From IMG/VR virus record IMGVR_UViG_3300020162_001932, positions 1 through 33,789 of that record: DNA of 33,789 nt. The stretch is one strand, 5' to 3'. This DNA is from a virus. Numbering within the stretch: position 1 is the stretch's first letter; each line of letters starts with the position of its first letter. The notes under the pieces are model-generated. The model made no database searches. It saw nothing but the letters and a program-made list of their open reading frames with translations, and had not been told where the DNA came from. This document shows, piece by piece, positions 3,999 through 33,688 of the stretch. Both the position numbers and the translations under genes were made by a program.

Positions 3999-4002
3999 AA
4001 AA

Positions 4003-4734: not shown

Positions 4735-5516
4735 TTTAAAATATGATTTGGTTGCCAATCAAAAGTTTTTCTAACCTTGGAAGTTTCAATATGCAAATAT
4801 GTCTTTTCTGCTTTTTGATTAATTCTAAGATTTAAAGATCCACGTTTCGACAGTATATCTATTATATCACAAATACAAATACTTTGTCTTCCAACTAGAA
4901 ACAATTCATTCTGTTTTTTTGTATCAGCATTAATGACCTTGATAAGAAGATTCACAAAATCATCAATATGAACTAAATCAATTTTGGTTTTAAGATTAGC
5001 AAAGATTTCAATTACTTGATCAGTATTCAAAGAATTTGTAAGTTTATCAACTAAACCATTAACTCTATTACTATTAACATCCGCACCCCAAATATTAGAA
5101 ATTCTAAGTACTACTGTTTTACATGAAAGTTCTTTTAATATATTCTCCACATGAAGTTTACACTCTCCATATAAGGAATGTGGTGATGGTTCATGTTCTT
5201 CACAAACAGTTCTCTCATAACCAAGATGCAAATCTCCTGCTGAAGAAATGAATATGATTTTTCCATTTGGATTTTTCTTTACATAATAATCAAATAAAGT
5301 TTTACTATTGATTACATCATTTTTGATAACTTTTTCAAATTCATCATAGGTATTTCTAGTTGTAGAAGACCATGCAAGATGAATCAAACAAGAGTTCTCA
5401 TGAGATTGAAAAACATCTGAAACTTCATCTCGATAGGAGATTGTGGTAACTTCTCCATTATATATTTTTAAAAATCTTGATCCGATTAATCCGTTAGCAC
5501 CCGTGATATAGATCAT
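4731..5516 (-). CDS. NAD(P)-dependent epimerase/dehydratase/reductase (extended SDR)
   Basis: A 261-aa extended short-chain dehydrogenase. The nucleotide-binding glycine motif TGANGLIGSRF lies at residues 5-15. ISSAGDLH comes before the catalytic pair YGECK (Y and K four apart). VVLRISNIWG and DLVHIDDFV are typical of sugar-nucleotide SDRs. At 261 aa it is short for the family, and the C-terminal substrate domain is reduced. It lies between the GT11 and GT6 genes with 4-bp overlaps on both sides. Together with GDP-mannose 4,6-dehydratase in the same operon it could be the 4-keto-6-deoxy reductase that finishes a GDP-6-deoxysugar, but that is inference. Confidence 0.8.
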   Translation of the reverse strand: MIYITGANGLIGSRFLKIYNGEVTTISYRDEVSDVFQSHENSCLIHLAWSSTTRNTYDEFEKVIKNDVINSKTLFDYYVKKNPNGKIIFISSAGDLHLGYERTVCEEHEPSPHSLYGECKLHVENILKELSCKTVVLRISNIWGADVNSNRVNGLVDKLTNSLNTDQVIEIFANLKTKIDLVHIDDFVNLLIKVINADTKKQNELFLVGRQSICICDIIDILSKRGSLNLRINQKAEKTYLHIETSKVRKTFDWQPNHILK

Positions 5517-6334
5517 TTAATGATAACCCATCCTTCCGGAATTATATCAGACGTGTCCAAATGTGCATTATTTGGACCAAACCATTTTTTTGGATCAGGG
5601 GAACAAACTATTTTATTGATACTTTTGGATAACCATGCACCCCACCAAGAGAAAGTAGAGTTGGCAATGATAAAATCAGTACATAAACTCATTAAACAAA
5701 GATCAGTATAACTATCATTTCCCTCTGAAACTAAGAAGCGATCTTCTTCAAACAAACTCTGCTCCTTACACCATTCAGGATCATCAGAAAAGATAATTAC
5801 AGTTCTATCACCATCAAATTTTTCTAAAGCAGATGCATAATAATCAAGACCAAGATTATTATGGTTTGCAGAGTTAATTAGAAAGTCACCCCGACGAATA
5901 TGAAGTGCAATAGGTCTATCAACTTCACTCATTCTATGCTTACAAAGAAGGGAGATTTCATTTTTAAAAGTGAAGTCCTGACGAATTTCATCTTCAATAT
6001 TTTTGAAATATTTTTCAGTTTGAAAATATCCTTGAAGATTTACCCAATCAGGACACTCATTAAAAATATTTTCATTAAAACCAAATCCTTCTTCGTCAAT
6101 AGTTGGACGATCCTGGTCAATGGTTTGAATATTGAGTTGAGTAACATTTGACATTACAAAAGGATCGAATAATTCAATCCTCAATTTATTACCTAGTCCA
6201 TCAGAAACTACTTCATTGTGGTATGGGATACAAAAATTATATCCACGATTCTTTGCAATTCCACAAAGAGATGCATACTGAAACATTTGATTTCCCAGTT
6301 GACCCATTTTACCAAGATAATTAAAACCTATCAT
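5513..6334 (-). CDS. GT11 family glycosyltransferase (alpha-1,2-fucosyltransferase type)
   Basis: A 273-aa protein with the GT11 signatures: GQLGNQMFQYA at residues 11-21, LHIRRGD (144-150), IIFSDDPEWC (180-189), and CTDFIIANSTFSWWGAWLS (218-236). The HxRRxD motif binds the GDP part of the donor in this family, which uses GDP-L-fucose or related GDP-sugars. This fits the GDP-mannose-derived sugar enzymes in the same operon. The ATG overlaps the upstream stop as TAATG, and the 3' end overlaps the SDR gene by 4 bp. The length is normal for bacterial GT11 enzymes. The acceptor is unknown. Confidence 0.9.
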   Translation of the reverse strand: MIGFNYLGKMGQLGNQMFQYASLCGIAKNRGYNFCIPYHNEVVSDGLGNKLRIELFDPFVMSNVTQLNIQTIDQDRPTIDEEGFGFNENIFNECPDWVNLQGYFQTEKYFKNIEDEIRQDFTFKNEISLLCKHRMSEVDRPIALHIRRGDFLINSANHNNLGLDYYASALEKFDGDRTVIIFSDDPEWCKEQSLFEEDRFLVSEGNDSYTDLCLMSLCTDFIIANSTFSWWGAWLSKSINKIVCSPDPKKWFGPNNAHLDTSDIIPEGWVIIK

Positions 6335-7266
6335 TAATCTCTAACCTTTTCTACAATTTTAAGAATACCTCTACAACGATTCAGATATGTATGATCTCTC
6401 TTTATAATTTCCATTTGATGAAGGATGAGTTCTTTATTGTTTTGATTTTCCACACCAAGATCAAAAATTTCCTGAGCATTCTCTGAAGTAAGAATGCTAT
6501 CATCAATAAAATTCTTTAGATATGGTGCATCAGAAACTGCAAGACATCCATAGCTAATTGCTTTTAGAACTCTACATGGAAGATACCAATTACCTTTTTG
6601 TTCTTGTGGTCTAAAGTCAGGAACAAACATTGATTTCTGCAGAATACCTACATGATCTTCATCTGTTGCAGGATTTACATTTGGATCATAATGGTTAAAT
6701 GAAATACCTTTGTTTTTTACAATCTCAATAAATTGTTGATGAAGTGGTTCTACATTTGGTCTAGGAGCATGAATAGTTCCTACGAAATTATATTCATTAT
6801 TGCGTTCTTTGTTTACCCAATCTAAATCAATTTCTTCGGGCATTAAATTTGTTGCCCAACTAAAGTAAACAACATTATAAGGTTCTGGTGCTTGAGTATC
6901 AAAAGTTACACCCTTTTCGATCTCAACATAACGATCATCATCTGGAATAGGTTTCTTAAACTCTGCGACTCGATAATTTACCAAGCATCTAACTTTATCA
7001 AGGTACTTGTTAACATTGGTAAATTTATCATATGCGAAATAAATTCCAGTATTAACAATAGGTACATTATGATCAAGAGGACCTTGATTATCCACAAAGA
7101 AAATGCAATTTGAATAGTCAAACTCAGATTGTGAAGGAAAAGATTGATCACTAAACCAATGAACTTCGCATCCTAATCTTTCAAATGCTTTCTTCATTCC
7201 AGCATAAATGTAAGAAAAGGTTTGGTTTGGTTTATTCTCTACCCAAAATACAATCTTATTTTTCAC
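6334..7266 (-). CDS. GT-B-like glycosyltransferase (Glyco_trans_1_2 type)
   Basis: A 310-aa protein. The start is a GTG that overlaps the upstream stop as GTGA, matching the coupling seen along the operon. The N-terminal part ([20 protein letters not shown], then [11 protein letters not shown]) looks like a GT-B acceptor domain. The C-terminal segment [20 protein letters not shown], then [16 protein letters not shown], resembles the donor domain of glycosyl-transferase group 1 type 2 proteins. No membrane segment is seen. It sits between GDP-mannose dehydratase and the GT11 enzyme. Enzyme class is likely; sugar and linkage are unknown. Confidence 0.65.
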
Positions 7267-8288
7267 TTTGTTGCCTCCAGATCACTATCACACATTTCTT
7301 TAACAAGATCAGCAAAAGAATACTTAGGTTTCCATCCAATCTTTTCTTTGGTATATGTAGAATCTCCAACAAGAGAATCAACTTCTGCAGGACGATAAAA
7401 CTCAGGATTAACCTTCACTAAAATTTCACCAGTTCCTTTGATAGTTGCGACTTCTTTTACACCTTTACCAGACCATTCAATATCAAATCCAAAATGCTTA
7501 CATGCAATGTCTATAAACTCGCGAACAGAGTGCTGCTCACCCATAGCAACAACATAATCATCTGGTTGTTCATTCTGAAGCATTAACCACATTGCTTCCA
7601 CATAATCTTTTGCATGTCCCCAATCACGTTTTGCATCCATGTTACCTAATTCAAGTGGAGCAGTGCGTTTGCCATTTTTAATTTCAGCAAGAGTTTTGGT
7701 AATCTTTCGTGTTACAAAGGTTTCACCGCGACGAGGACTTTCATGATTAAAGAGGATACCACTACATCCAAACAAACCATATGCTTCACGATAATTCTTA
7801 GTGATCCAATGAGCATAAAGTTTTGCTACTCCATACGGAGAACGTGGATGAAATTTAGTATCTTCTCTCTGAGGAATTGTTTGAACAAGTCCATACATTT
7901 CTGATGTACTTGCTTGATAAAACTTAGTCGTATTAATCAATCCAAGAATTCTAATTGCTTCAAGAATGCGACATACACCTAGAGCATCCACGTCAGCAGT
8001 GTAGAGTGCATTTGAGAAGGACACTTTTACATGACTTTGTGCCGCAAGATTATAAATTTCATCGGGACGTGTTTCTTGAATGATAGAGGTGATGTTAGAA
8101 AAATCTGTTAAATCCCCATAATGCAAAGTGATATTAGGATTACCTAAAAGGTAATTAATTCTATCCGTGCAATCTGAAGTTGAATTTCTGCGGATAATAC
8201 CATCAACTTTATATCCTTTACTTAGAAGAAGATCTGCAAGATAAGATCCATCTTGACCAGTAATGCCAGTAATAAGTGCTTTTTTCAT
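7263..8288 (-). CDS. gmd: GDP-mannose 4,6-dehydratase
   Basis: A 341-aa enzyme of full family length that converts GDP-D-mannose to GDP-4-keto-6-deoxy-D-mannose, the precursor of GDP-L-fucose, GDP-rhamnose and GDP-perosamine. The NADP motif [11 protein letters not shown] is at residues 7-17. [12 protein letters not shown] follows, then [12 protein letters not shown], the active-site STSEMYG (127-133), and the catalytic YGVAK (Y152, K156). [17 protein letters not shown] and [18 protein letters not shown] are near-invariant Gmd segments. The host would have to supply GDP-mannose. It starts one base after the upstream stop and overlaps the next gene by 4 bp. Confidence 0.95.
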
Positions 8289-8289
8289 A

Positions 8290-9030
8290 TTAATAATGAA
8301 CTTGATAGTCTACAGGATTTGTTTTAATTTTATTGTTTGCAATATGATGTTTCAGAAGGAGTTCATTACACCAATATCCATCAATCTCATTTGATTGTCT
8401 AATGAGTTGTCCTATTTGATTATAGACACCACAGAATACATTCATTGTATTTGTTGAACCCATACCAAACCAATCACTAATCATACCATCAGGTTGGTAC
8501 AGATCTTGATATATTAATGTATCATCATTTACAGATACCTCATCCAATTTTAACACTACATGAGGTGAGTAGTCAATTCTGTTTCTAATTACTAAATTAT
8601 ATTCAGTACCAGTTTCTACCGAATACTGCTCTTTCAAAAGGTTAGCAATCATGATACTATAGAACATACTATTCGTAGTATCGCAAATGTAATCTTTTGC
8701 TACTTCTAGTCCCGAAGGAACTTCAAGTGCCCATGTATGTGAATGAGTGAATACCTTATCAGGAAATTGATATCGCCTAATCCACTTCTTAGGTTTCTCA
8801 ACCATTATTCTTTTTGGTTGGAAATAATGAACCAGTTTATCAATTGCTTGAGGATCTAACCTATGTGCTTCTCTTCCGGGTATAACTGAATTGGTGCTTA
8901 GATTTTCTGGATCAAACCAAGTATGAATGAATACATCAACATCGTTATGTTGAAGAATTGTTTGATTTAATTTATGAAAACCAACATCAACAACTCTAGG
9001 TTGTCCAGATAAACATAATGCTATTTTCAT
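8290..9030 (-). CDS. Hypothetical protein, possible glycosyltransferase (SGQPR type)
   Basis: A 246-aa protein beginning [20 protein letters not shown], followed by [13 protein letters not shown]. This start (LSGQPR, then DVFIHTW) occurs, as far as I recall, in uncharacterised proteins of polysaccharide loci and large phages. An acidic RNRIDYSP lies in the middle (about residues 148-155), and a Trp/Gly segment [15 protein letters not shown] follows. There are no membrane segments. It overlaps the upstream methyltransferase gene by 4 bp and abuts gmd, so it is part of the same transcript. A transferase role is inferred from context and the N-terminal fold-like pattern only. Confidence 0.5.
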
Positions 9031-9638
9031 AATTCTCGTTTATTTATGAAAACGACATCACTCAAATCTGATTTATTCCAAGGCTCAATAGTAGTATCAT
9101 ATTCATAAAAAAATTTAAAATTTATAGAATCAAAATAATCAATACAATCTTTTTTAATATATTCGCCATCATATCTTGGAATTTTATTTGGACACTCTAT
9201 TGCAATAAATTTTATTCTATTTAAATTTTGTTTTGATAAAGATTTTACAATAGACAAATCTTTTCCTTCTGCATCAATTTTAATAAAATGTATAATTTCT
9301 TCTGGCAAATCAATATCAATAATGCTATTGATATTTAAAATGTCAATGAACCCCATTTCTTCACCTTTGGAAGAAAAAAGTGAAGAGGATTGATCATCAT
9401 TATAAAATATTTTCCTTTGGGGAGTTCTAACATCATCTAGACAAACACGATAAAACTTATCATAATGAGATTCTACTCCATAATCAATTGGATCAATTCC
9501 TATAGAATAAACATTTTTTAGATCAAAGAATTTTTCCAATTCTACCAAAAAAGATGCTCTTGCAGATCCAACATCTATAACATTAATTTTATCATATTGT
9601 TTTAATTCTTTAAATACTGGGGAAATCGTAGATGTCAT
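9027..9638 (-). CDS. FkbM-family SAM-dependent methyltransferase
   Basis: A 203-aa class I methyltransferase. INVIDVGSARASFL (about residues 18-31) is the SAM-binding motif I region. SIGIDPIDYG is the acidic motif II, and IHFIKIDAEGKDLSIVKSL is the signature of FkbM-type O-methyltransferases (Methyltransf_21). FIAIECPNKIP follows. These enzymes often methylate sugars or glycans in capsule and O-antigen clusters, which fits the context. It overlaps both neighbours by 4 bp. Base use is somewhat more AT-rich than that of gmd, which may reflect separate acquisition. Substrate unknown. Confidence 0.8.
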   Translation of the reverse strand: MTSTISPVFKELKQYDKINVIDVGSARASFLVELEKFFDLKNVYSIGIDPIDYGVESHYDKFYRVCLDDVRTPQRKIFYNDDQSSSLFSSKGEEMGFIDILNINSIIDIDLPEEIIHFIKIDAEGKDLSIVKSLSKQNLNRIKFIAIECPNKIPRYDGEYIKKDCIDYFDSINFKFFYEYDTTIEPWNKSDLSDVVFINKREL

Positions 9639-10102
9639 TTAAATTTTTCCACATAGTCACTACATACAGCAAAAAATCTTTTGCTGTATGCTATTGTAGC
9701 ATTATCTTGAATATTTTGCAAGTCGAATACTTCTGGCATTACAATAACAGAATTATTTTCAAATAATTGCCCAGGATAAGTCCAAATATAACCTTTACTA
9801 GTCAAAGTATACTTATCGTTTTCATGCCAAAAAAAGTTAAAATCTATTGGACTATTAGAAAAAATATTCAAAGATTTAAAATCTTTACAATGAATCCAAA
9901 GTTTATCTTTTCTTTTAACTAACCAAGTCATAGGAACATAATATTGTGGTTCATCATGCCCCAAATAAAACTGATGATCTTCGCATCTTACATCAATCTC
10001 AACATCATATCCACCTGCAATTGCTGCTTCAATGTATTCTAGTTTATTCTCCTCTAGAGGATTAGGTCCTACAATATTACCTCTATGTGCTATCAGTTTC
10101 AT
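9635..10102 (-). CDS. Short GDPD / PI-PLC-like phosphodiesterase-fold protein
   Basis: A 155-aa protein starting MKLIAHRGNIVGPNPLEENK, then AGGYDVEIDVR and FYLGHDEPQY. The HRG, the ExN near residues 18-19, the E-x-D at about 36-38 and the later H-D are the metal and acid-base residues of glycerophosphodiester phosphodiesterases. Typical enzymes have about 240-300 residues, so the C-terminal part of the TIM barrel is missing or very short. In a glycan operon it might release or transfer a glycerol-phosphate-type group, but this is speculation. It overlaps the cupin gene upstream and the methyltransferase gene downstream by 4 bp each. Confidence 0.6.
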   Translation of the reverse strand: MKLIAHRGNIVGPNPLEENKLEYIEAAIAGGYDVEIDVRCEDHQFYLGHDEPQYYVPMTWLVKRKDKLWIHCKDFKSLNIFSNSPIDFNFFWHENDKYTLTSKGYIWTYPGQLFENNSVIVMPEVFDLQNIQDNATIAYSKRFFAVCSDYVEKFK

Positions 10103-10419
10103 GCGATATACTTATCCGAAGGAATAGATGGCCATCTCACTACTATAAGATCGACATCACTCAAGAACTCAACATCAGAAACTTCATTTGGTTCATAGAT
10201 CCACATATCACCCGTTTTCAAATACTTTTTAGATACTATTAGTTCACCCTTTACAATGTAATTAAGTTCATTAGTGATTGCATGGTAATGAGGAAAAGTT
10301 TGTTGACCTTCTGTATGAGAATGATGTGCAACTTCAAAGAAAGGATTCTTGAAGATTGATGGATTAAAATCACCCACAAACCATCCTGCTTTAAAGTCAA
10401 CAATATTTGCTTGAATCAT
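10099..10419 (-). CDS. Single-domain cupin
   Basis: A 106-aa cupin-type beta-barrel. The histidine-rich EVAHHSHTEGQQTFPHYHAI (about residues 29-48) supplies the cupin-1 metal ligands. NYIVKGELIVSKK and GDMWIYEPNEVSDVEF give the glycine and proline turns of the second cupin motif. Small cupins in sugar clusters act as isomerases, epimerases or binding proteins. It lies directly after the nucleotidyltransferase-isomerase fusion, overlapping it by 4 bp, so a role in the same nucleotide-sugar pathway is plausible. No specific reaction can be assigned. Confidence 0.7.
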   Translation of the reverse strand: MIQANIVDFKAGWFVGDFNPSIFKNPFFEVAHHSHTEGQQTFPHYHAITNELNYIVKGELIVSKKYLKTGDMWIYEPNEVSDVEFLSDVDLIVVRWPSIPSDKYIA

Positions 10420-11573
10420 TTTTCCAATTCCTGAATACGAACCTGATGACGACCACCATCAAAACTATGTGTTGAACAGATTTCTAGATACTTATCCAAT
10501 TTCTCAATGGTGTAGTCCTTCGCAGGAATTGCAAAGAAGTTTGCACAATTATGACGAATGGCCATTTCCATAGAGAAGTCATCATAGATAAGTGCTGAAC
10601 GAATACCTTTATATTTGTTTGCACAAATATTCACACCTTGACCAGTTCTACAGAAACCAAATCCATAATCACAATCACGTTCAGCAATTGCTTTAACTGC
10701 TTGTGCAATGTAATCACTATAATCACAATCTTTATTCAGAATAGTTCCAAAGTCAATATACTCAAGATTATGCTTTTCAAGAATATGTTTAAACTCTTCT
10801 TTTGCTTCAAATCCAGAATGATCTGAGCAAATAGCAATTGGTTTATCACCAACCTTACGAATAACATTTTCTTTATAAAAATGAAACTCATCAGGAGTTC
10901 CAAATACATGCATCTTATCTACGTCTGAGGTAACAATTTTTTTACCATCATCAATGAGAAGATTATACAAAGGTGCGATATAAAATTCATTCTTTGTCCG
11001 AATATCCTTATTAATCATTTCCTTTGCATACTTGCAGAAGTCAGAACCTTTTTTGAATCCATAGATTCCAACACAAGCATTAGAACTAATTGCTTTCTTC
11101 TCAGCAGTTCTCTTTACATACCCATCTTGATCAACATCAGCATAACTATAATTTGCAGAATTTGATTTAAATGTCAAAAGGAGTCCATCTGCATTCAAGT
11201 TATTCATAGTATGCGGATCAAATACTGGACGGAATTCAATATCTAGAGTATGAATTACAAGAGGTGCATCATTATCAATATATTCTTCTGCATACAGACA
11301 ACTGCTCACAGATCCATCAGTAAGTTTATCAAGAATCACAATCTTGATGTCATCACCAAACTTTTTCTTTAGGAGTTCATCAATATGAAAATTATAGACA
11401 GTTTCATCTCTAACCACAAAGATTAGATTGCAATCTTCATAGCTTAAACAGTCAAGTGAAATATCAATTAAATGTTTGTCTTTAATATTGATTAACTGTT
11501 TTGGTACTTTAAACCCTTCTTTAATGAATCTACTACCAAGTCCCGCCATCGGAACAAGAACATTTGGTTTCAT
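10416..11573 (-). CDS. Fusion: sugar nucleotidyltransferase + RpiB/LacA/B-type sugar-phosphate isomerase
   Basis: A 385-aa two-domain protein. Residues 1-238 are a GT-A-fold nucleotidyltransferase: NVLVPMAGLGSRF (4-16), VPKQLINI (23-30), IHTLDIEF (107-114) and a late YNLLIDDGKKI. Residues 244-385 are a complete RpiB-type aldose-ketose isomerase: ICSDHSGFEAKEE (248-260), YGFGFCRTGQGVNICANK (303-320), GIRSALIYDD (323-332), RHNCAN (340-345) and GGRHQVRI (373-380). The usual isomerase residues D251, H252, C308 and H341 are kept. The frame is continuous with no frameshift. With the kinase and phosphatase genes just upstream it gives all four enzyme types needed to make an NDP-sugar from a ketose phosphate. 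Confidence 0.88.
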   Translation of the reverse strand: MKPNVLVPMAGLGSRFIKEGFKVPKQLINIKDKHLIDISLDCLSYEDCNLIFVVRDETVYNFHIDELLKKKFGDDIKIVILDKLTDGSVSSCLYAEEYIDNDAPLVIHTLDIEFRPVFDPHTMNNLNADGLLLTFKSNSANYSYADVDQDGYVKRTAEKKAISSNACVGIYGFKKGSDFCKYAKEMINKDIRTKNEFYIAPLYNLLIDDGKKIVTSDVDKMHVFGTPDEFHFYKENVIRKVGDKPIAICSDHSGFEAKEEFKHILEKHNLEYIDFGTILNKDCDYSDYIAQAVKAIAERDCDYGFGFCRTGQGVNICANKYKGIRSALIYDDFSMEMAIRHNCANFFAIPAKDYTIEKLDKYLEICSTHSFDGGRHQVRIQELEK

Positions 11574-12241
11574 ATTGAATTCCTAATAATTTCAGTCGTT
11601 TTTAAATGAGCAAATTCAATCCAGTTATGGATGTCTCCCACATTCCTTAGTAATTTATATAAGAAGCAAGAAGCGAATGTATCACCAGCACCAAGAACGT
11701 TCACTCCCTTTAGTATAAATTCTTCTGGTAGTTTATAGAAGAACTCATTCTCTCCATTTGATACAACACTTCCTGACGAACTATGAAGTACTACATATCC
11801 TTTTGTTGCGTTCACATAATCAGATAAATCCCCATCAATATCTTCATCAGAAATGAAGAGATAATCAACATGCTTAAGTAAATCTTTATTCAATGATTTT
11901 CCAGGACATATATCTGCAGTGATAGTACCATCCAGAGCAGGAATAAAATCATGAATAGACATCTCATTTAGATAGATGAGATGATGAATTTTTGATTCAA
12001 AAATCTTTGCTTTGTGTTGCACAAGATTCAAGTTTGTCTTTGAATATCTTTGCGCTGCTGGTTTATCAATATAAACAAGTGCTTGACCTACATCAATCGG
12101 AGATAGTCCAATATTTAATGTTGAATCAATCTTAAGCAATGATTTCCAAACATTTGCCATTGATCCTAAACTTTTCTTTTCACTATCACCACCAAGAATC
12201 GTATCAATAGTCAAATGTCCATAAAGTGAAATGTCTTTCAT
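11570..12241 (-). CDS. PfkB-family (ribokinase-like) sugar kinase, short form
   Basis: A 223-aa carbohydrate kinase. The C-terminal NVLGAGDTFASCFLY contains the PfkB anion hole and catalytic Asp (D187). ISDEDI before it matches the family's middle segment, and the N-terminal YGHLTIDTI fits the first strand. At 223 aa it is about 80 residues shorter than usual; the N-terminal lid region is reduced. The ATG at 12241 overlaps the upstream stop as ATGA (a TTG one codon earlier is rejected). The PfkB fold is shared with the heptose-7-phosphate kinase half of HldE, which suits a role beside the isomerase and phosphatase. Substrate not shown by sequence. Confidence 0.8.
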   Translation of the reverse strand: MKDISLYGHLTIDTILGGDSEKKSLGSMANVWKSLLKIDSTLNIGLSPIDVGQALVYIDKPAAQRYSKTNLNLVQHKAKIFESKIHHLIYLNEMSIHDFIPALDGTITADICPGKSLNKDLLKHVDYLFISDEDIDGDLSDYVNATKGYVVLHSSSGSVVSNGENEFFYKLPEEFILKGVNVLGAGDTFASCFLYKLLRNVGDIHNWIEFAHLKTTEIIRNSI

Positions 12242-12777
12242 CAAAACTTTTCCTTCAGGTCAAGTTCATAAATTTTAGTCATTACTTCATCATAAGGAAC
12301 AATAGGAATTAGTCCATCAATTTCCAATTTATCAAATAATTGCATAATGACATTTTCACCTGCTTTACAGTAAAGTGTATTTGCATTCTGTTTTACAATT
12401 ATTGGAGAATCCAGAAGACAGTAAGGATGTCCTACTGATTTCATAATATTAACATCAAAAAGATCATCTCCAAGATAAAGAACTTCTTCTGCAAGACAAT
12501 TGTAATCGTCAAGAACTTCTGTAAGATAATTTACTTTATCTTTATGAAATCCTTCGCCACGATTCACTACAACAGGAAGATTTCTATTCTTAAGAATGAT
12601 CTCATTATAAGGATCACCAGTTATAAAAACAACTGGAATTCCAATAGCACGAAATCTTTTAATTGCAGTCCAATCCTTATCACAGAAAAGTTTAAGAACT
12701 ACTTTCCCATCATGATCATAATATTTGGTGCCATCAGTAAGAACACCATCCACATCAAGGATTATGAGTTTGATCAT
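12241..12777 (-). CDS. HAD-superfamily phosphatase, KdsC/YrbI-like
   Basis: A 178-aa HAD hydrolase of KdsC size. The nucleophile motif is LIILDVDGVLTDG (D8 and D10). KLFCDKDWTAIKRFRAIGIP then VFITGD is typical of KdsC-type tetrameric phosphatases. HKDKVNYL supplies the lysine, and YLGDDLFDVNIMKSVGHPYC the acidic motif III. KdsC-like enzymes dephosphorylate Kdo-8-phosphate, and relatives act on other sugar acids or heptose phosphates. It lies between the SAM methyltransferase and the kinase with 1-4 bp overlaps. In this context it probably supplies the phosphatase step of an activated-sugar pathway. Confidence 0.85.
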   Translation of the reverse strand: MIKLIILDVDGVLTDGTKYYDHDGKVVLKLFCDKDWTAIKRFRAIGIPVVFITGDPYNEIILKNRNLPVVVNRGEGFHKDKVNYLTEVLDDYNCLAEEVLYLGDDLFDVNIMKSVGHPYCLLDSPIIVKQNANTLYCKAGENVIMQLFDKLEIDGLIPIVPYDEVMTKIYELDLKEKF

Positions 12778-13427
12778 AATTTAAATGTTTTCTTAATTTC
12801 TTCAATTAATTCTGCATCATTTGAAGCAACACCGAGGCCAGCAGAATTTGTAAAATTAACTTTAGGAACTTCAAGTTGAGAAAAGAATAATCCAGCACCA
12901 TCAGGATTTGAAATAGTATCATGAAAGATAATTGCACCATTTTCTTTCAAGAACGGTGACCAAGTATCACAATCATTTTTACAGTTTGCATAATCATGAA
13001 GTCCATCAATATGTAAAAGATCTATTTCTTTATTCCATTCTTTTGCAACTTCATCAAAATAACCTTTAATAATTTCAAGATTATTTAATTTTAATTTATC
13101 CTTAACATCTAACACAAATTGATAATCTTCATCTGATCTCAATTCATGTTTAGATTGGTCAAAACAATCGATTCCATATACAACACCTTTACTATGAAGT
13201 GCTAATAAAAAAGATGAGTACCCCCAATCAACCCCAAGTTCAACCGTAACTTGAGGATTAATTTTTTGAATCAACCAAGATATAAATTCATTATGACTTT
13301 TAGGTGGAATATTCCATGCAGATGGAATTGCACCCAAAATTTCACTCACATTATCATCATCCAGAGAAAGAACATATTCTCTCCAATTATCTCTTTTATT
13401 TTCACACCAAGAAAAATTTTCAACCAT
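12774..13427 (-). CDS. Class I SAM-dependent methyltransferase (Methyltransf_24-like)
   Basis: A 217-aa methyltransferase. VTVELGVDWGYSSFLLALHS is the SAM-binding motif I, VVYGIDCF motif II, and LLHIDGLHDYANCKNDCDTW with GAIIFHDT the family-24 motif. I chose the ATG at 13427 (MVENFSWC) because a strong Shine-Dalgarno AAGGAG lies 7 bases upstream and it overlaps the upstream stop by only 8 bp. A longer frame to 13508 would overlap gme by 89 bp. Likely substrate is a sugar or sugar nucleotide. Base use is AT-rich, as in the FkbM gene. Confidence 0.8.
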   Translation of the reverse strand: MVENFSWCENKRDNWREYVLSLDDDNVSEILGAIPSAWNIPPKSHNEFISWLIQKINPQVTVELGVDWGYSSFLLALHSKGVVYGIDCFDQSKHELRSDEDYQFVLDVKDKLKLNNLEIIKGYFDEVAKEWNKEIDLLHIDGLHDYANCKNDCDTWSPFLKENGAIIFHDTISNPDGAGLFFSQLEVPKVNFTNSAGLGVASNDAELIEEIKKTFKL

Positions 13428-14466
13428 TAATTTGCTCCTTAATCCAATCATAAGTCTTACGAATACCTTCTTCAAGTGTCTGCGAATAATCCCACCCAAG
13501 TTTTTCACGGATCAAATCGTTGTTTGAGTTACGACCACGAACACCGAGAGGTGCATCTAATTTATATACTTTCTGAACTACTTTACCAGCAACCTTTGCA
13601 GCAGTCTCTACAAGTTGATTGATAGTCACCATTTCTTCTGAACCAATATTTACTGGTCCGATGAAATCAGATTCCATCATTCTACGAGTTGCTTCAATAC
13701 ACTCATCAATATAAAGGAATGAACGAGTCTGAAGACCATCACCCCATACTTCTATCGCACCACCTGTTTCTGGGAGGTATGCAACCTTTCTACAGATTGC
13801 TGCGGGGGATTTTTCTCTTCCACCTTCCCAGGTTCCTTCAGGTCCAAAGATATTATGATAGCGAGCAACCCGAATATCAATCCCGTAGTTACGATGATAT
13901 GCGAAAAACAATCGTTCAGAAAAGAGTTTTTCCCATCCATATTCTGAATCTGGTGCTGCTGGGTATGCCGATTCTTCACTACAGTTTGGGTTATTTGGAT
14001 CTAATTGGTTGTGCTCTGGATACATGCAAGCAGAACTAGAATAAAAAATCTTAGTGTTGTTTACACCACTCATTCTATTACGTTCTTTTTGCATCTCAAG
14101 CACATTCAGATTAATAGTTGCGGAATTGTGCATAATGTCTGCATCATTCTCACCACTAAAAACAAATTCTGCTCCACCCATATCGGCAGCAAACTGATAG
14201 ATCTCATCAAACGATGTAATATGACTATCAGGTACTAATTGATAAAAATTTCCCAGATAACCCTTAAACTGAAGGCAAGAAGCAACAAATCTAACATCAC
14301 GCAGATCTCCCCGAATGAATTCATCTGCCTCAGAGATAGAAAACTCTGGATACTTAAGATCTACACCACGAACCCAGTAACCTTCTGATAGTAGTCTTTT
14401 AACCATGTGACTTCCAATGAACCCACCAGCACCCAGAACCAGTGCTGTTTTCTTATATTCACTCAT
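13420..14466 (-). CDS. gme: GDP-mannose 3,5-epimerase-like SDR
   Basis: A 348-aa extended SDR closely resembling plant GDP-mannose 3'',5''-epimerase, which makes GDP-L-galactose (and GDP-L-gulose) from GDP-D-mannose. Landmarks: VLGAGGFIGSHM (10-21), QFAADMGGAEFV (91-102), YSSSACMYPE with C147, the catalytic EYGWEK with Y176 and K180, YHNIFGPEGTWEGGREKSPA with K219, and WGDGLQTRSFLYIDEC, VNIGSEEMVTINQLVE and GVRGRNSNNDLI. These correspond to the catalytic Cys, Tyr, Lys and Lys of the plant enzyme. It is the first gene of the glycan island, just after a terminator and weak promoter. Confidence 0.88.
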   Translation of the reverse strand: MSEYKKTALVLGAGGFIGSHMVKRLLSEGYWVRGVDLKYPEFSISEADEFIRGDLRDVRFVASCLQFKGYLGNFYQLVPDSHITSFDEIYQFAADMGGAEFVFSGENDADIMHNSATINLNVLEMQKERNRMSGVNNTKIFYSSSACMYPEHNQLDPNNPNCSEESAYPAAPDSEYGWEKLFSERLFFAYHRNYGIDIRVARYHNIFGPEGTWEGGREKSPAAICRKVAYLPETGGAIEVWGDGLQTRSFLYIDECIEATRRMMESDFIGPVNIGSEEMVTINQLVETAAKVAGKVVQKVYKLDAPLGVRGRNSNNDLIREKLGWDYSQTLEEGIRKTYDWIKEQING

Positions 14467-18282: not shown

Positions 18283-18828
18283 CTAACCAAGAATACTTTG
18301 TCTCCAATCTTCACTCATATTCGCCATAATTGATTCTGCTGCTTCTGGTGTTTCTGCATATCCTTCATCAAGAAGGTGTGAGAGGATGATGTCGTAGAGG
18401 TCTACTTGTTCTTTACTTAAAATGGGTTCTATAGAAAATCGTGCGGTTCTGCCCTTACTAGCAATTGAACCACTAGAAGTTGCATTTTGCCTATCTTTAA
18501 TCTTATCAACCGCATTTACAACTTTTTTAGCCTTTGCATTTATTTTACGTCTATCTTTGACAGGAGTAAAAGTCTTGGTAGTACGGACATCACTCATCTT
18601 ATTAATTCTTCCAGCTCTATTGAGATTGAGCTCACCTTGTCTTCCTTGTGGTTGACTTCCTGACAATCTTTCCGACCTAGTAACACCAGAAGAAAGTTTG
18701 TTTATTTCTCTTTGTATTTTACGTGCAACTTTTTTTTCTGGAAATTGCTTGAATCCCTCATCAAGTTCTTGTTCTTGATAAACTTCCAAATATGCTTCTT
18801 GAAGACTACGAAGTTCTTGTGCGTCCAT
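18283..18828 (-). CDS. Putative virion/prohead-associated modular protein (small paralogue)
   Basis: A 181-aa protein with two modules shared with 32650-33660. One is the start MDAQELRSLQEAYLEVY; the other is near the C-terminus, with KEQVDLYDIILSHLLDEGYA followed by MANMSEDWRQSILG. The middle is basic and Ser/Lys/Arg-rich with no fold visible. In cyanomyoviruses such low-complexity proteins are usually reported as virion or core components, but I cannot assign a position. A late promoter TATAAATA is 20 bp upstream of the start, and a terminator follows, so this is a one-gene late unit. Confidence 0.65.
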   Translation of the reverse strand: MDAQELRSLQEAYLEVYQEQELDEGFKQFPEKKVARKIQREINKLSSGVTRSERLSGSQPQGRQGELNLNRAGRINKMSDVRTTKTFTPVKDRRKINAKAKKVVNAVDKIKDRQNATSSGSIASKGRTARFSIEPILSKEQVDLYDIILSHLLDEGYAETPEAAESIMANMSEDWRQSILG

Positions 18829-18846
18829 TTTACAAATACTTTTTAG

Positions 18847-19614
18847 TTATTTATAAACCCTACCTCTTTTCCATTCAACACCAGGACATTCTTGTTGGCA
18901 TTTAGCAATACCTTCTGGACTAACCCACCATTTACTTTTTCCTTTTATAATATATCTTCCTCTATACCATCCGTCTGGTATTTGTTCACCTAAAGAATTT
19001 ATGTATTTGTTTTGATTTCCATCAGTAATCCATATCTTACCGTAACAAGAATTTTTTTCACCAAGTTTTGATTCAATATATTTTCTTTTCATCTCTGGAT
19101 TTTGATGTGATTTGATTGCAGTCAATCTTCTACGCTCCCTTTCCTCTGGGCGATTTGCAACATCTTTAGTATATTTTTTTCTTTTTTCTATAGAAGAAGG
19201 TGTGTTAGCAGATTTTATTAAGTTTATTCTTGCCTTCTCTCTTAACTCTGGATTACTCATAGGATTGAAATTAGTTTTCATCAACTCGCTCCTTCTCTTT
19301 TTTGCTTCTTCTCCAGGACCTTTATCATAATAAAATCCAGTAGAAGTTTGATATGCCCTATTAGCAAAGTGTGAATTTTCAACTACTTTATAATATTGCT
19401 GTAAACTAATTTCATCTTGTATTGCTTCCTTTCTTGTATCATAATCACTTTTTAGAATTATCTTTTGAGTGGGATTAAAATTTTTATGACTATACGTCCC
19501 AAAATACTTTACATCTTCTTCAGGTAAACATTTACAGGTTCTACTACCAAAATAACCCATACCCCACTCTTCATAAGAATAATAGGTATAATGATACTCT
19601 TTTGGAGTTTCCAT
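18847..19614 (-). CDS. Putative GIY-YIG-type homing endonuclease
   Basis: A 255-aa protein. The N-terminal part fits a GIY-YIG-like nuclease: YHYTYYSYEEWGMGYFGSRT (about residues 7-26), KYFGTYSH (36-43), then KIILKSDYDTRKEAIQDEIS with the possible catalytic Glu (about 51-70). The middle has NUMOD3-like helical, basic repeats (NPELREKARINLIKSAN, then NRPEERERRRLTAIKSHQNP). The C-terminal GKIWITDGNQNKYINSLGEQ then PDGWYRGR is typical of phage homing-enzyme DNA-binding tails. It lies free-standing between the endolysin and a late gene. It has its own late promoter, unusual for a selfish element. Confidence 0.65.
   Translation of the reverse strand: METPKEYHYTYYSYEEWGMGYFGSRTCKCLPEEDVKYFGTYSHKNFNPTQKIILKSDYDTRKEAIQDEISLQQYYKVVENSHFANRAYQTSTGFYYDKGPGEEAKKRRSELMKTNFNPMSNPELREKARINLIKSANTPSSIEKRKKYTKDVANRPEERERRRLTAIKSHQNPEMKRKYIESKLGEKNSCYGKIWITDGNQNKYINSLGEQIPDGWYRGRYIIKGKSKWWVSPEGIAKCQQECPGVEWKRGRVYK
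18848..18855 (-). promoter_or_regulatory. T4-type late promoter
   Basis: TATAAATA overlapping the last codons and stop of the upstream endonuclease gene. It drives the modular protein 18283-18828. The following leader is nearly identical to the one at 33661-33688. Confidence 0.75.
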
Positions 19615-26272: not shown

Positions 26273-26473
26273 TTACTTGTTTTTTAGGTACTGCATCCAT
26301 AATTTGCGAGATCCTCTTCCACCACTCATATATCTTTTACGAACCTTCCCCATAACAGGATCAAATCCAGCAACAGGACCTTTAGGATCTGCGGCACTTG
26401 TAAATCCATCAGCGCCAGCAACCATTTGCTCTCTAATAATATTTATAATTTTATCAAGTTTCTTCTTTTCCAT
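26273..26473 (-). CDS. Small basic hypothetical protein
   Basis: A 66-aa protein: a helical start MEKKKLDKIINIIREQMVAG, a Gly/Pro-rich middle (DPKGPVAGFDPVMGKVRKRY) and a basic aromatic end (SRKLWMQYLKNK). It looks like a conserved small structural or assembly factor of cyanophages, but there is no recognisable domain. It overlaps the upstream gene by 20 bp and is followed one base later by the coiled-coil gene, so it is in a coupled set. Confidence 0.65.
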   Translation of the reverse strand: MEKKKLDKIINIIREQMVAGADGFTSAADPKGPVAGFDPVMGKVRKRYMSGGRGSRKLWMQYLKNK

Positions 26474-28055: not shown

Positions 28056-28313
28056 TTAATCAAACCTTGATCCGATTTTAGTTTTGGGTGTTTTTTTCAT
28101 ATTCTCTTTTTCTTTTTCAGTGCGAGTATAGTCATAACCACCTGGTTCTTTTTTTGCCTTTGGTGGATCACCTGGCATTCTCACCCGACTACCATCTTTT
28201 TTTACCATCATATAATCTTCCAAAGACATTTTTACTGATGTGCTAGTTTCGTCAACCATATCACCTTCTGGTTGGTAAGATGCCTCAAGAGGAAGTTTAT
28301 TAGTTCTTTGCAT
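28056..28313 (-). CDS. Hypothetical hydrophilic protein
   Basis: An 85-aa strongly hydrophilic protein ([20 protein letters not shown], then [20 protein letters not shown]), probably disordered, with a basic C-terminus. I chose the ATG at 28313; the longer frame begins with TTG at 28334. It overlaps the end of the 528-aa gene by 14 bp. It is probably co-expressed with that late gene. No family recognised. Confidence 0.6.
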
Positions 28314-29886
28314 TTGAAGTTTTTGACGATCCAATATCTGTTTTTTTTTGTTGAAGCATTTTTAGATTAGCAAGTTTTTGCTTATCAAATATCTCTTTTT
28401 TGTTATCAATAGGAGGAGTTGCAGTTACTATTGGTGGTTCATTATTCATTTGTTCTACAACTTTCTTTGCTATTTTTGTAGCAGTAGCATACATCACTTC
28501 TTCACCACGACCAGGATATCTTCTTTCAAAGTCTGCTTTATTACTCTTCATTGACTTTACAAGTCTTTCCTTTTCCTTTGTTTCAGCATCAGTTAAAGTC
28601 TTTTCATAAAGTTCAACTTCTTCTTTTCTAATATCAGAAAGCAGAGAATCTAACTTTGATGTTCTTTTTCTTTTTGGAGTTGCAGGTTTTGCTGCTGCAG
28701 GTGTTGCAGGTTTTGGTGTTGTCGTAGTCTTTGCCTTTGGTGCTGCTACCTTTACCTTTGGTTTTGGCGCTGTTGCAGGTGCTTCTGATGCTGCAGGTTT
28801 TGGTGTTGCTTTTGATGTAGTATCAGTTTTCTTTTCTCCATCTTCCATTCTGCGAGCAACATTTCTTGCTCCTCTTGATACTGCTCTTGCACCAGCACCA
28901 ACTGCCCTTTTTAGTCCACTCTTAAGTGCTGATCCAATTCTTCCAAGCAATCCAGGTCTTTTAGATCCAGTTTCCTTTGTGTCAGAACTTGTTTGTGAGG
29001 AAGAAGAACTGCCCTCACCAGAAGAACCTCCTCTACCTCTTTCATATCCTTTGGAAAACTCTCTACCAGCTGCTCTCGCTCCTCTTACAGCAGCACCAGC
29101 AACATATCCTACTCCACGAGCAAGTCCCTTTCCAACTTTCTTTACAGCAGACTTTACTTTCTCAAGTCTATCACTCTTAATATCAGTATCGTGCCCCAGA
29201 GTGACTTTTGCTTCTGTTAAAAGAGCAGCAGAAACATCTATTGACTCAACTAAAACATTTTCAATTTCTTTAACATCATATCCTTCTTGAATACACTCAT
29301 TAAAGAACTCTTCAACAACTTCTTCAATCAGTTTATCTGAAAGAAGAAATACTTCAGATTCTGAAAGATCATCAAGAATACAATCAGCATCTTCAATCTC
29401 TACCATCTCAAGAAGAGTTCCACCAAGTTCCTCTACTGCTTCACCAAGAGTTGGATTAATTGTAATTTTATTTTTTATTGCTTTTTCAGTAACTTTTAAA
29501 TCTTCACTTTTATCGTTTTTTTTTAAGTCTCCAATCACTTCAGAAAGATCTTGTCTCCAATCAGAGAAACCTTCTTTTACATTTTTCTTTTTGATTGCCT
29601 TACCAACTGCTTTGCGTCTGTTGTGAAGATACTTATCCGACTTATCAGTATCACCATCATTATCAATATCAGCATCTTCTTGACCTACTGGGTCTAGTGC
29701 TTCATCAAACTTCTTTCTAGCTGCAGCAACCATATCTTTATGTGCTTTGGTTTTTTTCATATCTTCAATTGCTTTTTCATTATTTTCACGACGTTTCTTC
29801 ATATCAGGTTCAAGATGTGAAGACTCACCAACCACAACTTGCTCCAGATATACTGATGAGATATCGTTAAGAATATTCATTGACAT
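28300..29886 (-). CDS. Large low-complexity virion/core-type protein with EF-hand-like motif
   Basis: A 528-aa protein. Residues about 60-110 have [20 protein letters not shown], a D-x-D-N-D-G-D calcium-binding loop as in dockerins/EF-hands, followed by a basic [12 protein letters not shown]. An acidic helical region follows (about 140-225), then Ala/Gly/Arg-rich ([20 protein letters not shown]) and Lys/Ala/Pro/Thr-rich linkers, and finally a conserved-looking [20 protein letters not shown] (about 460-480). Such composition fits a prohead core or internal virion protein. A late promoter is 31 bp upstream. A second Met is at residue 3. Confidence 0.65.
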
Positions 29887-29893
29887 TGTAATA

Positions 29894-31195
29894 CTACTTG
29901 CTTTTTACCTTATACTTATTTATAAACTCCTTAATATTAGAAAACTTATATCCACTATAAGGTTTTGCTCCTGGTTGAAGATTTGTTTTATCACCCTTCT
30001 CAAAACCAGGAGTCATACCTGCAACATACTTAAAATATCCAGAGGTTCCTACAAGAGTATTTGGTTTTCCAGGGAGTCTTTCTTTTCCACTCATTACCTT
30101 TTCAGTATATTCCATCAGATCCCTGATCCAAGACTTAAACATATATCCTTCTTCAGTTACATAGATTAAATGATTAGTTCCTCTACGCATTACTTCACCA
30201 ACCAACCCAGTATTTAAGTTCTCAACAATATCTCCAATTCTAAAAATCTTTCCTGTTAAATAATTTTCACGAAGAGTTTGTTGATCGTATTTTGGAGCAA
30301 TCTGCCAGAGTTCTACAACTTCTTTTTTCTTTTTCTTTGCACCCATTCCCTGACGAACTGCATTAAAGAGTGCTTGAGTATCAGCATCATCAAGTGTCTT
30401 TGGAGTTCCTTTGCGGAAGGAATCAAAATCATCATCAATAACTGCTTTTCTCATCTTGGATGCAGACATTCCTTCTACACCATCAGCATCTGCATCTCTG
30501 ACTCCTGCAGAAACTACACGGATTAAATCAAAGTTATAAAGGTCTCCATTATATTTCTGTGCAAGGTTCTCAAACTCTGCTTGACGATCTGATCCAACAA
30601 CAATATTAACACTTGAGTATCCTTCTTCATTTGCATTTATAAGAACATCAAAAATAGATCTCATATTATCATCGTTTATAATGATTTCCTCAAAGTCAGG
30701 AAACATCTTCTTCATAAACGAAATCTTCATATCAGGATCCAACGGGTTCTTCTTTGGATCTTGAGTTCTTGATGGATAAATCTTAACATCTCCACCAGCA
30801 GATATTCTCTTTGCTGACTTGAGAAGTTTATCGTGTCCTACTGTTGGTGGATTAAACCTACCAAATACAATTGTAAGTGGTGGAGTTTCTTGTGTTTGAT
30901 CTTCAGGTGCGGGTTTTTTTGGTGCTTTAGATTCTGGTGCAGGTGCTTGTGCTGCTTTTGCTTTTGGTTTTGTTTCAGGAGCAGCAGTTTTTTGAGTATC
31001 TGTTTTGGGTTCTTCTTGTCCTTTAGAAGTTCTTTTTTCAGTAAACTTTAGTTTTCCCTTTTCTGTTCTTGCAACTACTTTACCGGCACGATCAATCCAC
31101 CCTCCGTGACCATCACCTTTTAGTCCAAGTTTCTTCGCTTGCATTGCTGCTTGCGATTCTGTTGCTTCAGTTAGAAAATTGAGAAAACTTTTCAT
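29894..31195 (-). CDS. Putative virion protein with nucleotidyltransferase (HxGH-like) domain
   Basis: A 433-aa three-part protein. Residues 1-55 form an N-terminal module ([20 protein letters not shown], then [19 protein letters not shown]) that I recall from other marine-phage virion proteins. A Lys/Ala/Pro linker follows (about 55-105). Then comes a Rossmann-like nucleotidyltransferase domain: [20 protein letters not shown] (about 106-125) with TVGH in place of Hx[19 protein letters not shown], and [10 protein letters not shown], which fits the ISSTxxR motif. The C-terminal part is unassigned. The catalytic motifs look usable, so NMN-, CTP- or pantetheine-type transfer is possible. Confidence 0.7.
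29917..29924 (-). promoter_or_regulatory. T4-type late promoter inside the end of a gene
   Basis: TATAAATA within the last codons of the nucleotidyltransferase-domain gene, 31 bp before the 528-aa gene's ATG. Confidence 0.65.
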
Positions 31196-31215: not shown

Positions 31216-31223
31216 TATTTATT
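31216..31223 (-). promoter_or_regulatory. Late-promoter-like site
   Basis: AATAAATA (7/8), overlapping the stop codon of the 446-aa gene, 21 bp before the ATG at 31195. Confidence 0.45.
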
Positions 31224-32559
31224 CTAATTTTAAATAAGGAGCGGAGAATGATGACTGCGAACTTGCATAAAGATATAAATCTTTTGTAATTTCATCAGCT
31301 ACTTTTTTATTCATATCTCTCATTTTAATTAAAAGTTTTAAAACTAACCATTTAGAGTAACGATATTTTTCAGATTTTCCTTTAATAGTATTTACAACTG
31401 CGTCTTCTTCATTTGCTTTAATTATACCATAATCCATCATTAATTTAGCAATATCCTTAGCATGTTTATCACTATTTTGTCTAGCTAAAGAGGCAGATTC
31501 TGTTGAGGTTGGTAATTCACCTACACCATGACTTTTTAAAATATAGTTTAAGGGTCCCAATGAAATCTTTCCTTGATTAGCAGATGCTCCTTTAATCTCA
31601 CCTTGCCATCCGGATAATCCATCCCCAACACCAAAACTTCTAAATTGTATTTTTTCGGTGGGAGAAGTTCCCCAAATAATATAACCATCCATAGACTCGA
31701 AAGTTGAAGAGGTTCCTCTAAATGATGCCTTTGATATTTTTGCATCATTAGGAAAGTTTTTTTCTGATATTGATGCCCTGTTTGATTCTATCTTTTTTAA
31801 AGATACTCCAATAAGTTTTTCTTCTTGAATTAATTGATACATCCTTTCATTTAATCCCTTTAAAGTAGTTTCTCCATTCAAGATATTGGGGTTAAAACCC
31901 TTCCTTATAATGTATATATCTGCCGGACTCCATTTGTTTATATCACCAAATGCCTTTTCAATTCTATTTATTTTTTTAAAAACATTCTCGATCTGATCTA
32001 CTTTATTCGATCCCCTATGATATTCAAACACCTTATCATCAAATCTTTTACGTAACTCATTTGCTCCTAAAATTGAAGAATGAATCCAATCATCAGGTAA
32101 TTCATTTTTCATTCTATTAAAATCTTCATCAGTAATTGCAAATTTAATTGCTTTATCAAAATTTGTCTGTGTAAGATCACTTTCCGATATATTTTTACCG
32201 AGGACATTAGACATAGAAGCATAAAGTGCTTGAGCAGATTCCCCCAATTTTGTTACTTCGGATCCTGCTCCAGATCCACCACCCTTAAGTGGTTTATATA
32301 CAACTTTATAAGTAATATTAACAGACCCTTCTTTAATATTTACAATGGTAATAGGAAAACTAGATTCATTATCTTTTACATTTGCTTGAAAAGAAACACT
32401 TTCTCTTTTTAAGGCGGCATTTACATCGACAGCAAGCTTTGTTCTATCTGCAGATTTTACAGTGTAAACAACAGTTCTACTAGTTGCTTTTTTTATAGAA
32501 ACATCAAAACCTTGTAAAGCTCTATTTAAAGCAAGTAGAGCATCCCCTGCTTTTGCCAT
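31219..32559 (-). CDS. Hypothetical protein, probably virion-associated
   Basis: A 446-aa protein of unknown family. The N-terminal third is beta-rich with repeated hydrophobic/polar alternation (TSRTVVYTVKSADRTKLAVD; ITIVNIKEGSVNITYKVVYK) up to a GGGSGAGS linker near residue 95. The rest is mainly helical and charged, with a Gly/Trp-rich patch (FGVGDGLSGWQGEIKG). No catalytic motif is evident. Position among late-promoter genes suggests a structural protein. A weak late-promoter-like AATAAATA and a terminator lie upstream. Confidence 0.65.
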   Translation of the reverse strand: MAKAGDALLALNRALQGFDVSIKKATSRTVVYTVKSADRTKLAVDVNAALKRESVSFQANVKDNESSFPITIVNIKEGSVNITYKVVYKPLKGGGSGAGSEVTKLGESAQALYASMSNVLGKNISESDLTQTNFDKAIKFAITDEDFNRMKNELPDDWIHSSILGANELRKRFDDKVFEYHRGSNKVDQIENVFKKINRIEKAFGDINKWSPADIYIIRKGFNPNILNGETTLKGLNERMYQLIQEEKLIGVSLKKIESNRASISEKNFPNDAKISKASFRGTSSTFESMDGYIIWGTSPTEKIQFRSFGVGDGLSGWQGEIKGASANQGKISLGPLNYILKSHGVGELPTSTESASLARQNSDKHAKDIAKLMMDYGIIKANEEDAVVNTIKGKSEKYRYSKWLVLKLLIKMRDMNKKVADEITKDLYLYASSQSSFSAPYLKLE

Positions 32560-32649: not shown

Positions 32650-33660
32650 TTACTTATTATTCATCTGCCTCTCTTTATAAGCATCAAGTTCTGCTTTTCT
32701 TTGCTCTGGGGTTTTCTTTGCATCTGCATCTCTAACAGATTTTAATGCTGCTTGAAATGCAGGATCATTATTTGGTTTAGATTGCTTATAAACATTCATA
32801 GGACCAGAAGCAGGACGACCTCTTGGGTCCATTTTTACCTCAACAATACTCTGTCTCCACTCTTCACTCATATTTGCCATAATGACTAATGCACTCTCAT
32901 TAGTATCAGCATATCCTTCGGCAATCAAGTACTCAAGGATTGTGTCGAAGATATCAACTTCCTCTTTAGTAACCAATCCAACAACATTCCTGTTCTTTTT
33001 AGTTAATTTATCAAAAAATTTAACATCTCTTTGCATCTTATCAGCATTATCTTTTCCTGCTGCTGGAGAAAGACGATTCTTTATACCAGACTTTCTTTCC
33101 GTAGATGCTGCTTTTCTCATTTCAGTATCGTGACGTGAAGCACCTTTTACTGCTTCATCAAGACAAACCTCATACATTTCATCCCAAGTGTATGAAGAAA
33201 GGTCATAACCCTCTTCAATTAGTGCATTTACGATAAACTCAAACTCTTCTCTGTTAAGTGCTGCTGCTCTTTTTGCTGCTTTACTACCCCTTCCTCTTGC
33301 ATCATCAGCACCATACTTACTATAACCTGCTTTCAGATACTTATCGTGTGCTGCTTTGGATTGGTTAGCAACTTGCTTCTGGAATGGTTTATCTCCATAA
33401 TCTTTTTCATCTTTTTCTGCTCTTGCACGAGATCTATCAAGGATTTGTCTCTTTGCTGAAGTGTCTGATTTTTCTGGTCCTACATTATACTTCTTACGAA
33501 GTTGATCACCTCTACTTTCTGGTTTAGGTGCTTCTGCTTCTTTTTTACCACCACCAAGAAGTCTCTTTACTGCTGAACGAAGACCTTCTTCAATATTTTC
33601 TTGAGGAGCATAAACATCCATATATGCTTCGTGGAGGTTACGCAGTTCTTTAGAATCCAT
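32650..33660 (-). CDS. Putative virion/prohead-associated modular protein (large paralogue)
   Basis: A 336-aa protein. It starts MDSKELRNLHEAYMDVYAPQ, like the gene at 18283-18828. A long basic, Ala/Lys/Arg-rich middle is followed by two helical modules. One is NREEFEFIVNALIEEGYDLS, then WDEMYEVCLDEAVKGASRHD. The other is TKEEVDIFDTILEYLIAEGY, then MANMSEEWRQSIVE, shared with the small paralogue. The tail is Pro/Lys-rich. There is no enzyme motif. A terminator-fused late promoter lies 20 bp upstream and a terminator follows. A prohead core, internal or tail component is the best guess. Confidence 0.65.
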   Translation of the reverse strand: MDSKELRNLHEAYMDVYAPQENIEEGLRSAVKRLLGGGKKEAEAPKPESRGDQLRKKYNVGPEKSDTSAKRQILDRSRARAEKDEKDYGDKPFQKQVANQSKAAHDKYLKAGYSKYGADDARGRGSKAAKRAAALNREEFEFIVNALIEEGYDLSSYTWDEMYEVCLDEAVKGASRHDTEMRKAASTERKSGIKNRLSPAAGKDNADKMQRDVKFFDKLTKKNRNVVGLVTKEEVDIFDTILEYLIAEGYADTNESALVIMANMSEEWRQSIVEVKMDPRGRPASGPMNVYKQSKPNNDPAFQAALKSVRDADAKKTPEQRKAELDAYKERQMNNK

Positions 33661-33680
33661 TTTTTACAATACTTTCTAGT

Positions 33681-33688
33681 TATTTATA
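33681..33688 (-). promoter_or_regulatory. T4-type late promoter
   Basis: TATAAATA followed by ACTAGAAAGTAT on the minus strand. It begins within the T-run of a terminator. The leader matches that of 18283-18828 almost base for base. Confidence 0.8.

Follow-up and report, generated by a model that had tools for sequence, protein, structure and literature searches.

The function of many cyanophage late genes is unknown. Here, we ask what is the role of two of them, which lie far apart on a 33,789-nt virus fragment (33.8 kb; hereafter the window) and share both a protein start and a helical module. Gene A (18283..18828, minus strand) encodes 181 aa, comprising a leader, a basic body predicted to be disordered, and a C-terminal module, and lies in an nrdB / tail-lysozyme island. 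Gene B (32650..33660, minus strand) encodes 336 aa with leader and module as in A, and is the positional equivalent of SSCSM1_89 of phage S-SCSM1. Judging from the sequences, both are probably modular cyanophage cargo proteins of the head interior, with a capsid-targeting propeptide.

Common ends and a common late cassette

Both ORFs are open at these coordinates. BLASTP aligned the N-terminal blocks of the two proteins with 15/28 identical residues (54%, E 5e-7) and the C-terminal blocks with 27/45 (60%, E 3e-17), and found no similarity between the middle regions. The shared start and C-terminal module of the original prediction were thus confirmed, and when the check proposed with it, a module profile search (iterated profile of 41 positions), was made, A and B were the sole matches within the window. 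The findings on this pair cover the 33.8-kb fragment, the rest of the phage proteome lying outside it. The module is truly C-terminal in gene A, where it forms the very end (residues 140-180; 18289..18411, minus strand; three helices predicted), but not in gene B, where it spans residues 233-273 of 336 (32842..32964, minus strand). Both proteins match PHROG 3708, a family with no assigned function (E 6.4e-19 for B, 8.6e-7 for A). Gene B has also a second helical module (EFEFIVNALIEEGYDLSSYTWDEMYEVCLDEA; approximately 33148..33252, minus strand; phrog_27516 match to residues 135-180), which ends EEGYDLSSYTWDEMYEVCLDEA; other family proteins have one, and it looks like another shuffled piece.

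Sequence comparison placed a late promoter TATAAATA with a 5'UTR cassette upstream of gene A (TATAAATAACTAAAAAGTATT; 18835..18855, minus strand) and of gene B (TATAAATAACTAGAAAGTATT; 33668..33688, minus strand), the promoter standing at 18855 and 33688 as in T4-type late genes. The local alignment score of the two 35-nt upstream regions, 24, was the highest of 55 pairs drawn from 11 upstream regions of the window and exceeded all 5000 shuffles (maximum 19), so that the claim of near-identical promoter-leaders stands. The cyanophage late promoter NATAAATA is already known (PMC2984593). In our set TATAAATA precedes 105/154 distinct module genes, 24/104 other late genes and 3/462 other genes. The extended TATAAATAACTAAAAAGTATT-type cassette, found by regular expression, precedes 36/154, 3/104 and 0/462 of them, respectively. 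This enrichment rules out that the cassette is a mere general late promoter; because it marks the module genes, we conclude that promoter, 5'UTR and leader travel together.

This association bears on the reading that A and B are late host-takeover proteins without specific packaging, whose shared ends serve as regulatory or stability modules. Their location in variable islands would suit such a role, as would the Pfam, NCBIfam and PADLOC searches, which gave no function and no catalytic domain for the module proteins. The strength of the late promoter association argues against it, together with the detection of the S-SCSM1 relative in virions (see below), and we regard it as most improbable.

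The family was collected by two IMG/VR scans that yielded 80 loci each; in the first, 555/557 pattern matches were noted as relatives. An ORF with the module was found 230 times (178 distinct) in 164 sequences with a total of 10,869 ORFs, the copies of the window in the loci being counted too; several single loci have two to four module proteins. Among the 214 M-starting proteins scoring at least 40 bits, the leader was recognized by pattern in 178 and not in 36. Leader and module occurred together in 148/156, a biased figure, as similarity to these proteins was how the loci had been chosen. At E <= 0.01 the module was matched in DSL-LC02 (2), S-SCSM1 (1), S-CRM01 (4), S-SRM01 (4), ACG-2014f (1) and B23 (4), and eight of eight large IMG/VR contigs have it; all these 14 (six named phage records, obtained via BLAST, and the eight contigs) were picked for carrying the module. 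Eight further records were not picked by module score, and only P-SSM2 and, weakly, RN05-S have it; the family is therefore patchy. The module was absent at E <= 0.1 from S-SM1, S-PM2, Syn9, S-CREM2, S-IOM18 and T4, and is therefore dispensable. For S-CREM2, 0/21 proteins selected from the 104-150 kb region have it, and there is none in the entire record.

Among 155 modules on other contigs, 86 are nearer to the B copy, and 90 nearer to the A copy, than A is to B (63%). The duplication must therefore be old and family-wide, and a recent one within this phage is excluded. The proposal of a whole unit duplicated and then changed in its middle accordingly survives in part: the common 5' cassette, the two modules and the unrelated disordered middle agree with it, but a simple event in this phage is not supported.

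The N-terminal leader and the 41-residue module

The leader of gene A comprises residues 1-24 (18757..18828, minus strand); its candidate gp21-type cuts fall behind E11 (LQE↓A) and E24 (LDE↓G). That of gene B comprises residues 1-25 (33586..33660, minus strand), and here the candidate cuts fall behind E11 (LHE↓A) and E25 (IEE↓G). Leaders were located solely through a downstream Y..[VIMT][YVHCW] pattern, which gave 114 distinct leaders and left 20 distinct N-termini unmatched. Their conserved core is [LI]-x-E-A-Y, where x varies freely: 102 of the 114 have L/I at P3, 98 have E at P1 and 94 have A at P1'. A complete [LI]xE↓[AGS] is present in 88/114, including both window genes, and 26/114 are without a complete first site. 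The P1 Glu is residue 11 in 66/89 leaders with E-A.

A second [LI]xE, often about 13 residues beyond the first site, falls within 14 aa past the leader in 60/86 non-redundant proteins, where shuffling gave a mean of 28 (maximum 39). The background is 7.6% of windows taken from other parts of these proteins and 194/1638 other N-termini. The look-alike second sites [LIV]xD, [LI]xQ and [LI]xK showed no enrichment.

In T4, the prohead protease gp21 cuts after the E of L/I-x-E, as given in PMC9026906; T4 propeptides have 10-19 residues, and 10 residues suffice for IPIII targeting. From the T4 genome sequence, ipII and ipIII start MKTYQEFIAE↓A, that is, E10↓A11. A propeptide of this kind (about 10-19 residues ending in L/I-x-E) is found by sequence motif in the same 88/114 leaders. 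The leader itself, MD(A/S)xELRxLxEAY, is unlike the T4 capsid-targeting sequence (CTS) MKTYQEFIAEA. For the prohead-protease processing raised as a check with the original prediction, the leader motif predicts gp21-type cleavage, with a geometry near that of the IPII/IPIII CTS. The conserved E-A-Y could alternatively reflect helix packing. The window has no head genes. Among relatives, S-SCSM1 and loci L091 and L093 have a gp21-type protease, and L-x-E, expected at the propeptide end of the MCP, is present in 7/7 MCP ORF N-termini among those listed.

AlphaFold modelled gene A with three C-terminal helices (block pLDDT 81-89) and a low-confidence middle between these and the leader helix (residues 3-20); modelled alone, the module gave pLDDT 78 and pTM 0.54. 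The family bodies outside leader and module have a median charge of +8.1 per 100 aa and are positive in 142/148, as compared with 724/1576 ORFs of at least 150 aa; these basic bodies are predicted to be disordered.

No known fold was matched by the module in a Foldseek search against PDB at E <= 0.001, and a PDB sequence search gave nothing below E 0.3. The best structure match on a second look was an RNA polymerase segment (Z 4.9), to which we attach no meaning, the query being small and helical. In BFVD the module matched further proteins of cyanophages, SSCSM1_89 among them (TMq 0.83). The LisH dimerisation motif (Pfam PF08513) weakly matched 4/56 module sequences (best E 0.021), the gene A module not among them, and is no more than a lead. 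Our guess for the module's function is oligomerisation or core binding.

[LI]xE stands exactly at the module end in 67/92 non-redundant cases (E frequency 9.8%), in gene B as IVE (residues 272-274). This terminal I-x-E might be one more cut site or have a structural role. As a strict cleavage site, the module-internal L[LIV]xEG is unsupported, P3 being V in 37/90.

Such module ends would suit a role of A and B as prohead-core or scaffold accessories resembling gp67/gp68, which help in building the head, are docked to its core by the module and end as protease substrates instead of cargo. Small module-only proteins near the capsid cluster also point that way (one of 67 aa in L125, flanked by MCP and tail tube, and one of 52 aa in L136, immediately before the tail-tube-like gene), as does the module-only PSSM2_140 of P-SSM2 (51 aa, uvsY / uvsW interval). 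We consider this explanation unlikely, since SSCSM1_89 persists in purified virions and the copies are distant from head genes, patchy and length-variable, unlike an essential core protein.

Virion evidence and genomic neighbours

In S-SCSM1 virions 45 proteins were detected by MS (PMC9602691), and the S-SCSM1 record labels genes 89-93, 95 and 97 as virion protein; we take these labels to be the MS list of the paper. SSCSM1_89 stands first in the gene row that gene B leads in the window. It is the sole significant module match in S-SCSM1 (E 1.8e-9) and the sole leader match there (1/816 ORF N-termini; weak, E 0.023), and carries LSE↓A at 9-11 without a second [LI]xE. The prior of detection for a single protein is about 16% (45/282 CDS), and just one family member has MS support.

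The original prediction had proposed the module as a possible docking or scaffold-binding tag of virion proteins. The virion part gains from the label of the gene B equivalent, but the gp21-type motif and T4 geometry favour the N-terminal leader over the C-terminal module, and the leader is on the best reading the targeting tag.

Mapping the loci onto S-SCSM1 genes revealed recurrent late-gene islands in T4-like cyanophages. Gene B lies in mazG-[module]-v90-NMNAT and gene A in nrdB-[module]-lysozyme; further islands are gp46-[one to three modules]-cobS and sites near psbA/psbD. In the gene B row, all on the minus strand, the equivalents of SSCSM1_90 (31219..32559) and SSCSM1_92 (28300..29886) map to virion proteins, and between them lies the NMNAT/cytidylyltransferase-like SSCSM1_91 equivalent (29894..31195), whose start is close to MKTYQEFIAEA of T4 IPII/IPIII. 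Window ORFs 26853 and 26273 match SSCSM1_95 and SSCSM1_97. ORF 26273 (66 aa, 26273-26473; GADGFTSAADPKGPVAGFDPVMGK) is similar to the N-terminal arm of the mature major capsid protein of S-SCSM1; this arm-like piece is common to SSCSM1_97 and S-CREM2 gp160, both listed virion proteins.

Every one of the 13 distinct starts of NMNAT-like proteins conforms to M..[KTSN].[FY]..F[LIFM].E, a pattern near the T4 tag. NMNAT/cytidylyltransferase proteins are reported from virions of S-SCSM1 (PMC9602691), S-CREM2 and S-SM1. Another 25 distinct non-NMNAT genes have a T4-CTS-like start, MKTYQEFISEA in L065, and some alternate with module genes. Of the 25, 16 are no more than two genes away from a module gene, against 362/1243 others (Fisher p 5e-4). 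Past nrdB in P-SSM2, genes starting MKSLSQFIIET and VKTYQQFNES flank a weak module gene. Loci with T4-CTS-like non-NMNAT genes are L065 (7366-8217), L071, L082, L086, L163, L033, L135 and L159.

Virion detection cannot tell head from tail, and some module genes adjoin baseplate wedge genes (L044, L046, L072 and L161) or precede terL (L091, L093 and L095). Both facts would fit tail or other non-head virion proteins, with leader and module acting as helices for structural docking. The protease-type leader motif, the disordered basic bodies and the interleaved T4-CTS-like genes speak against this, and make it quite unlikely in our judgement.

Proposed role and related systems

Head-internal cargo is the reading we prefer because of the leader motif, the second site, the virion label, the basic bodies, the CTS-like neighbours and the late cassette. 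Each gene would form a separate late unit with a T4-type late promoter and a family-specific 5'UTR, its product being built from a leader with L/I-x-E↓A, a variable, probably disordered positive body and the 41-aa module of three predicted helices. While the head is being assembled, the leader would attach to the prohead core, to be removed later by a gp21-type prohead protease. The basic body would stay with the DNA within the mature head, and might be ejected into the host.

As far as motifs and gene order can tell, A and B most likely work like the T4 internal proteins, with a leader sequence unlike the T4 tag. IPI/IPII/IPIII and Alt (CTS) have in common with this family a short N-terminal tag that carries L/I-x-E↓A at residue ~11, basic bodies of small size and several paralogues. 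The cyanophage leaders differ in their residues and have the extra AYxxVY and second site, and T4 is without the C-terminal module. The anti-restriction Dar system of P1, where the N-terminal 30 residues (the DarB packaging signal) send cargo to the capsid (PMC9024508), is similar in its manner of targeting. Ejection proteins of SPN3US and other giant phages have an N-terminal propeptide with a gp21-like motif as here; the propeptides of the examples have 111-130 residues (PMC7411985), against 11-25 in the cyanophage family. Literature searches on head targeting in cyanophages, covering few subscription papers, listed no report of such a tag.

More tentatively, and with somewhat less than an even chance, many T4-like cyanophages may share an interchangeable system of cargo loading, in which a mobile late cassette (promoter, propeptide and module) with swapped, unrelated basic bodies of disordered type, and a second set with T4-like tags, provide phage-specific ejected proteins. 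A readable tag, if true, would allow head-bound proteins to be listed from sequence alone, the virion-detected NMNAT-like enzyme included, and would offer a loading route for protein delivery into cyanobacteria.

Elsewhere in the window, an HNH-endonuclease-like ORF (18847-19614; phrog_10820) lies directly upstream of gene A, and the ORF list, judged by eye only, shows a long minus-strand block of glycosyltransferase-like and nucleotide-sugar genes at 591-14466.
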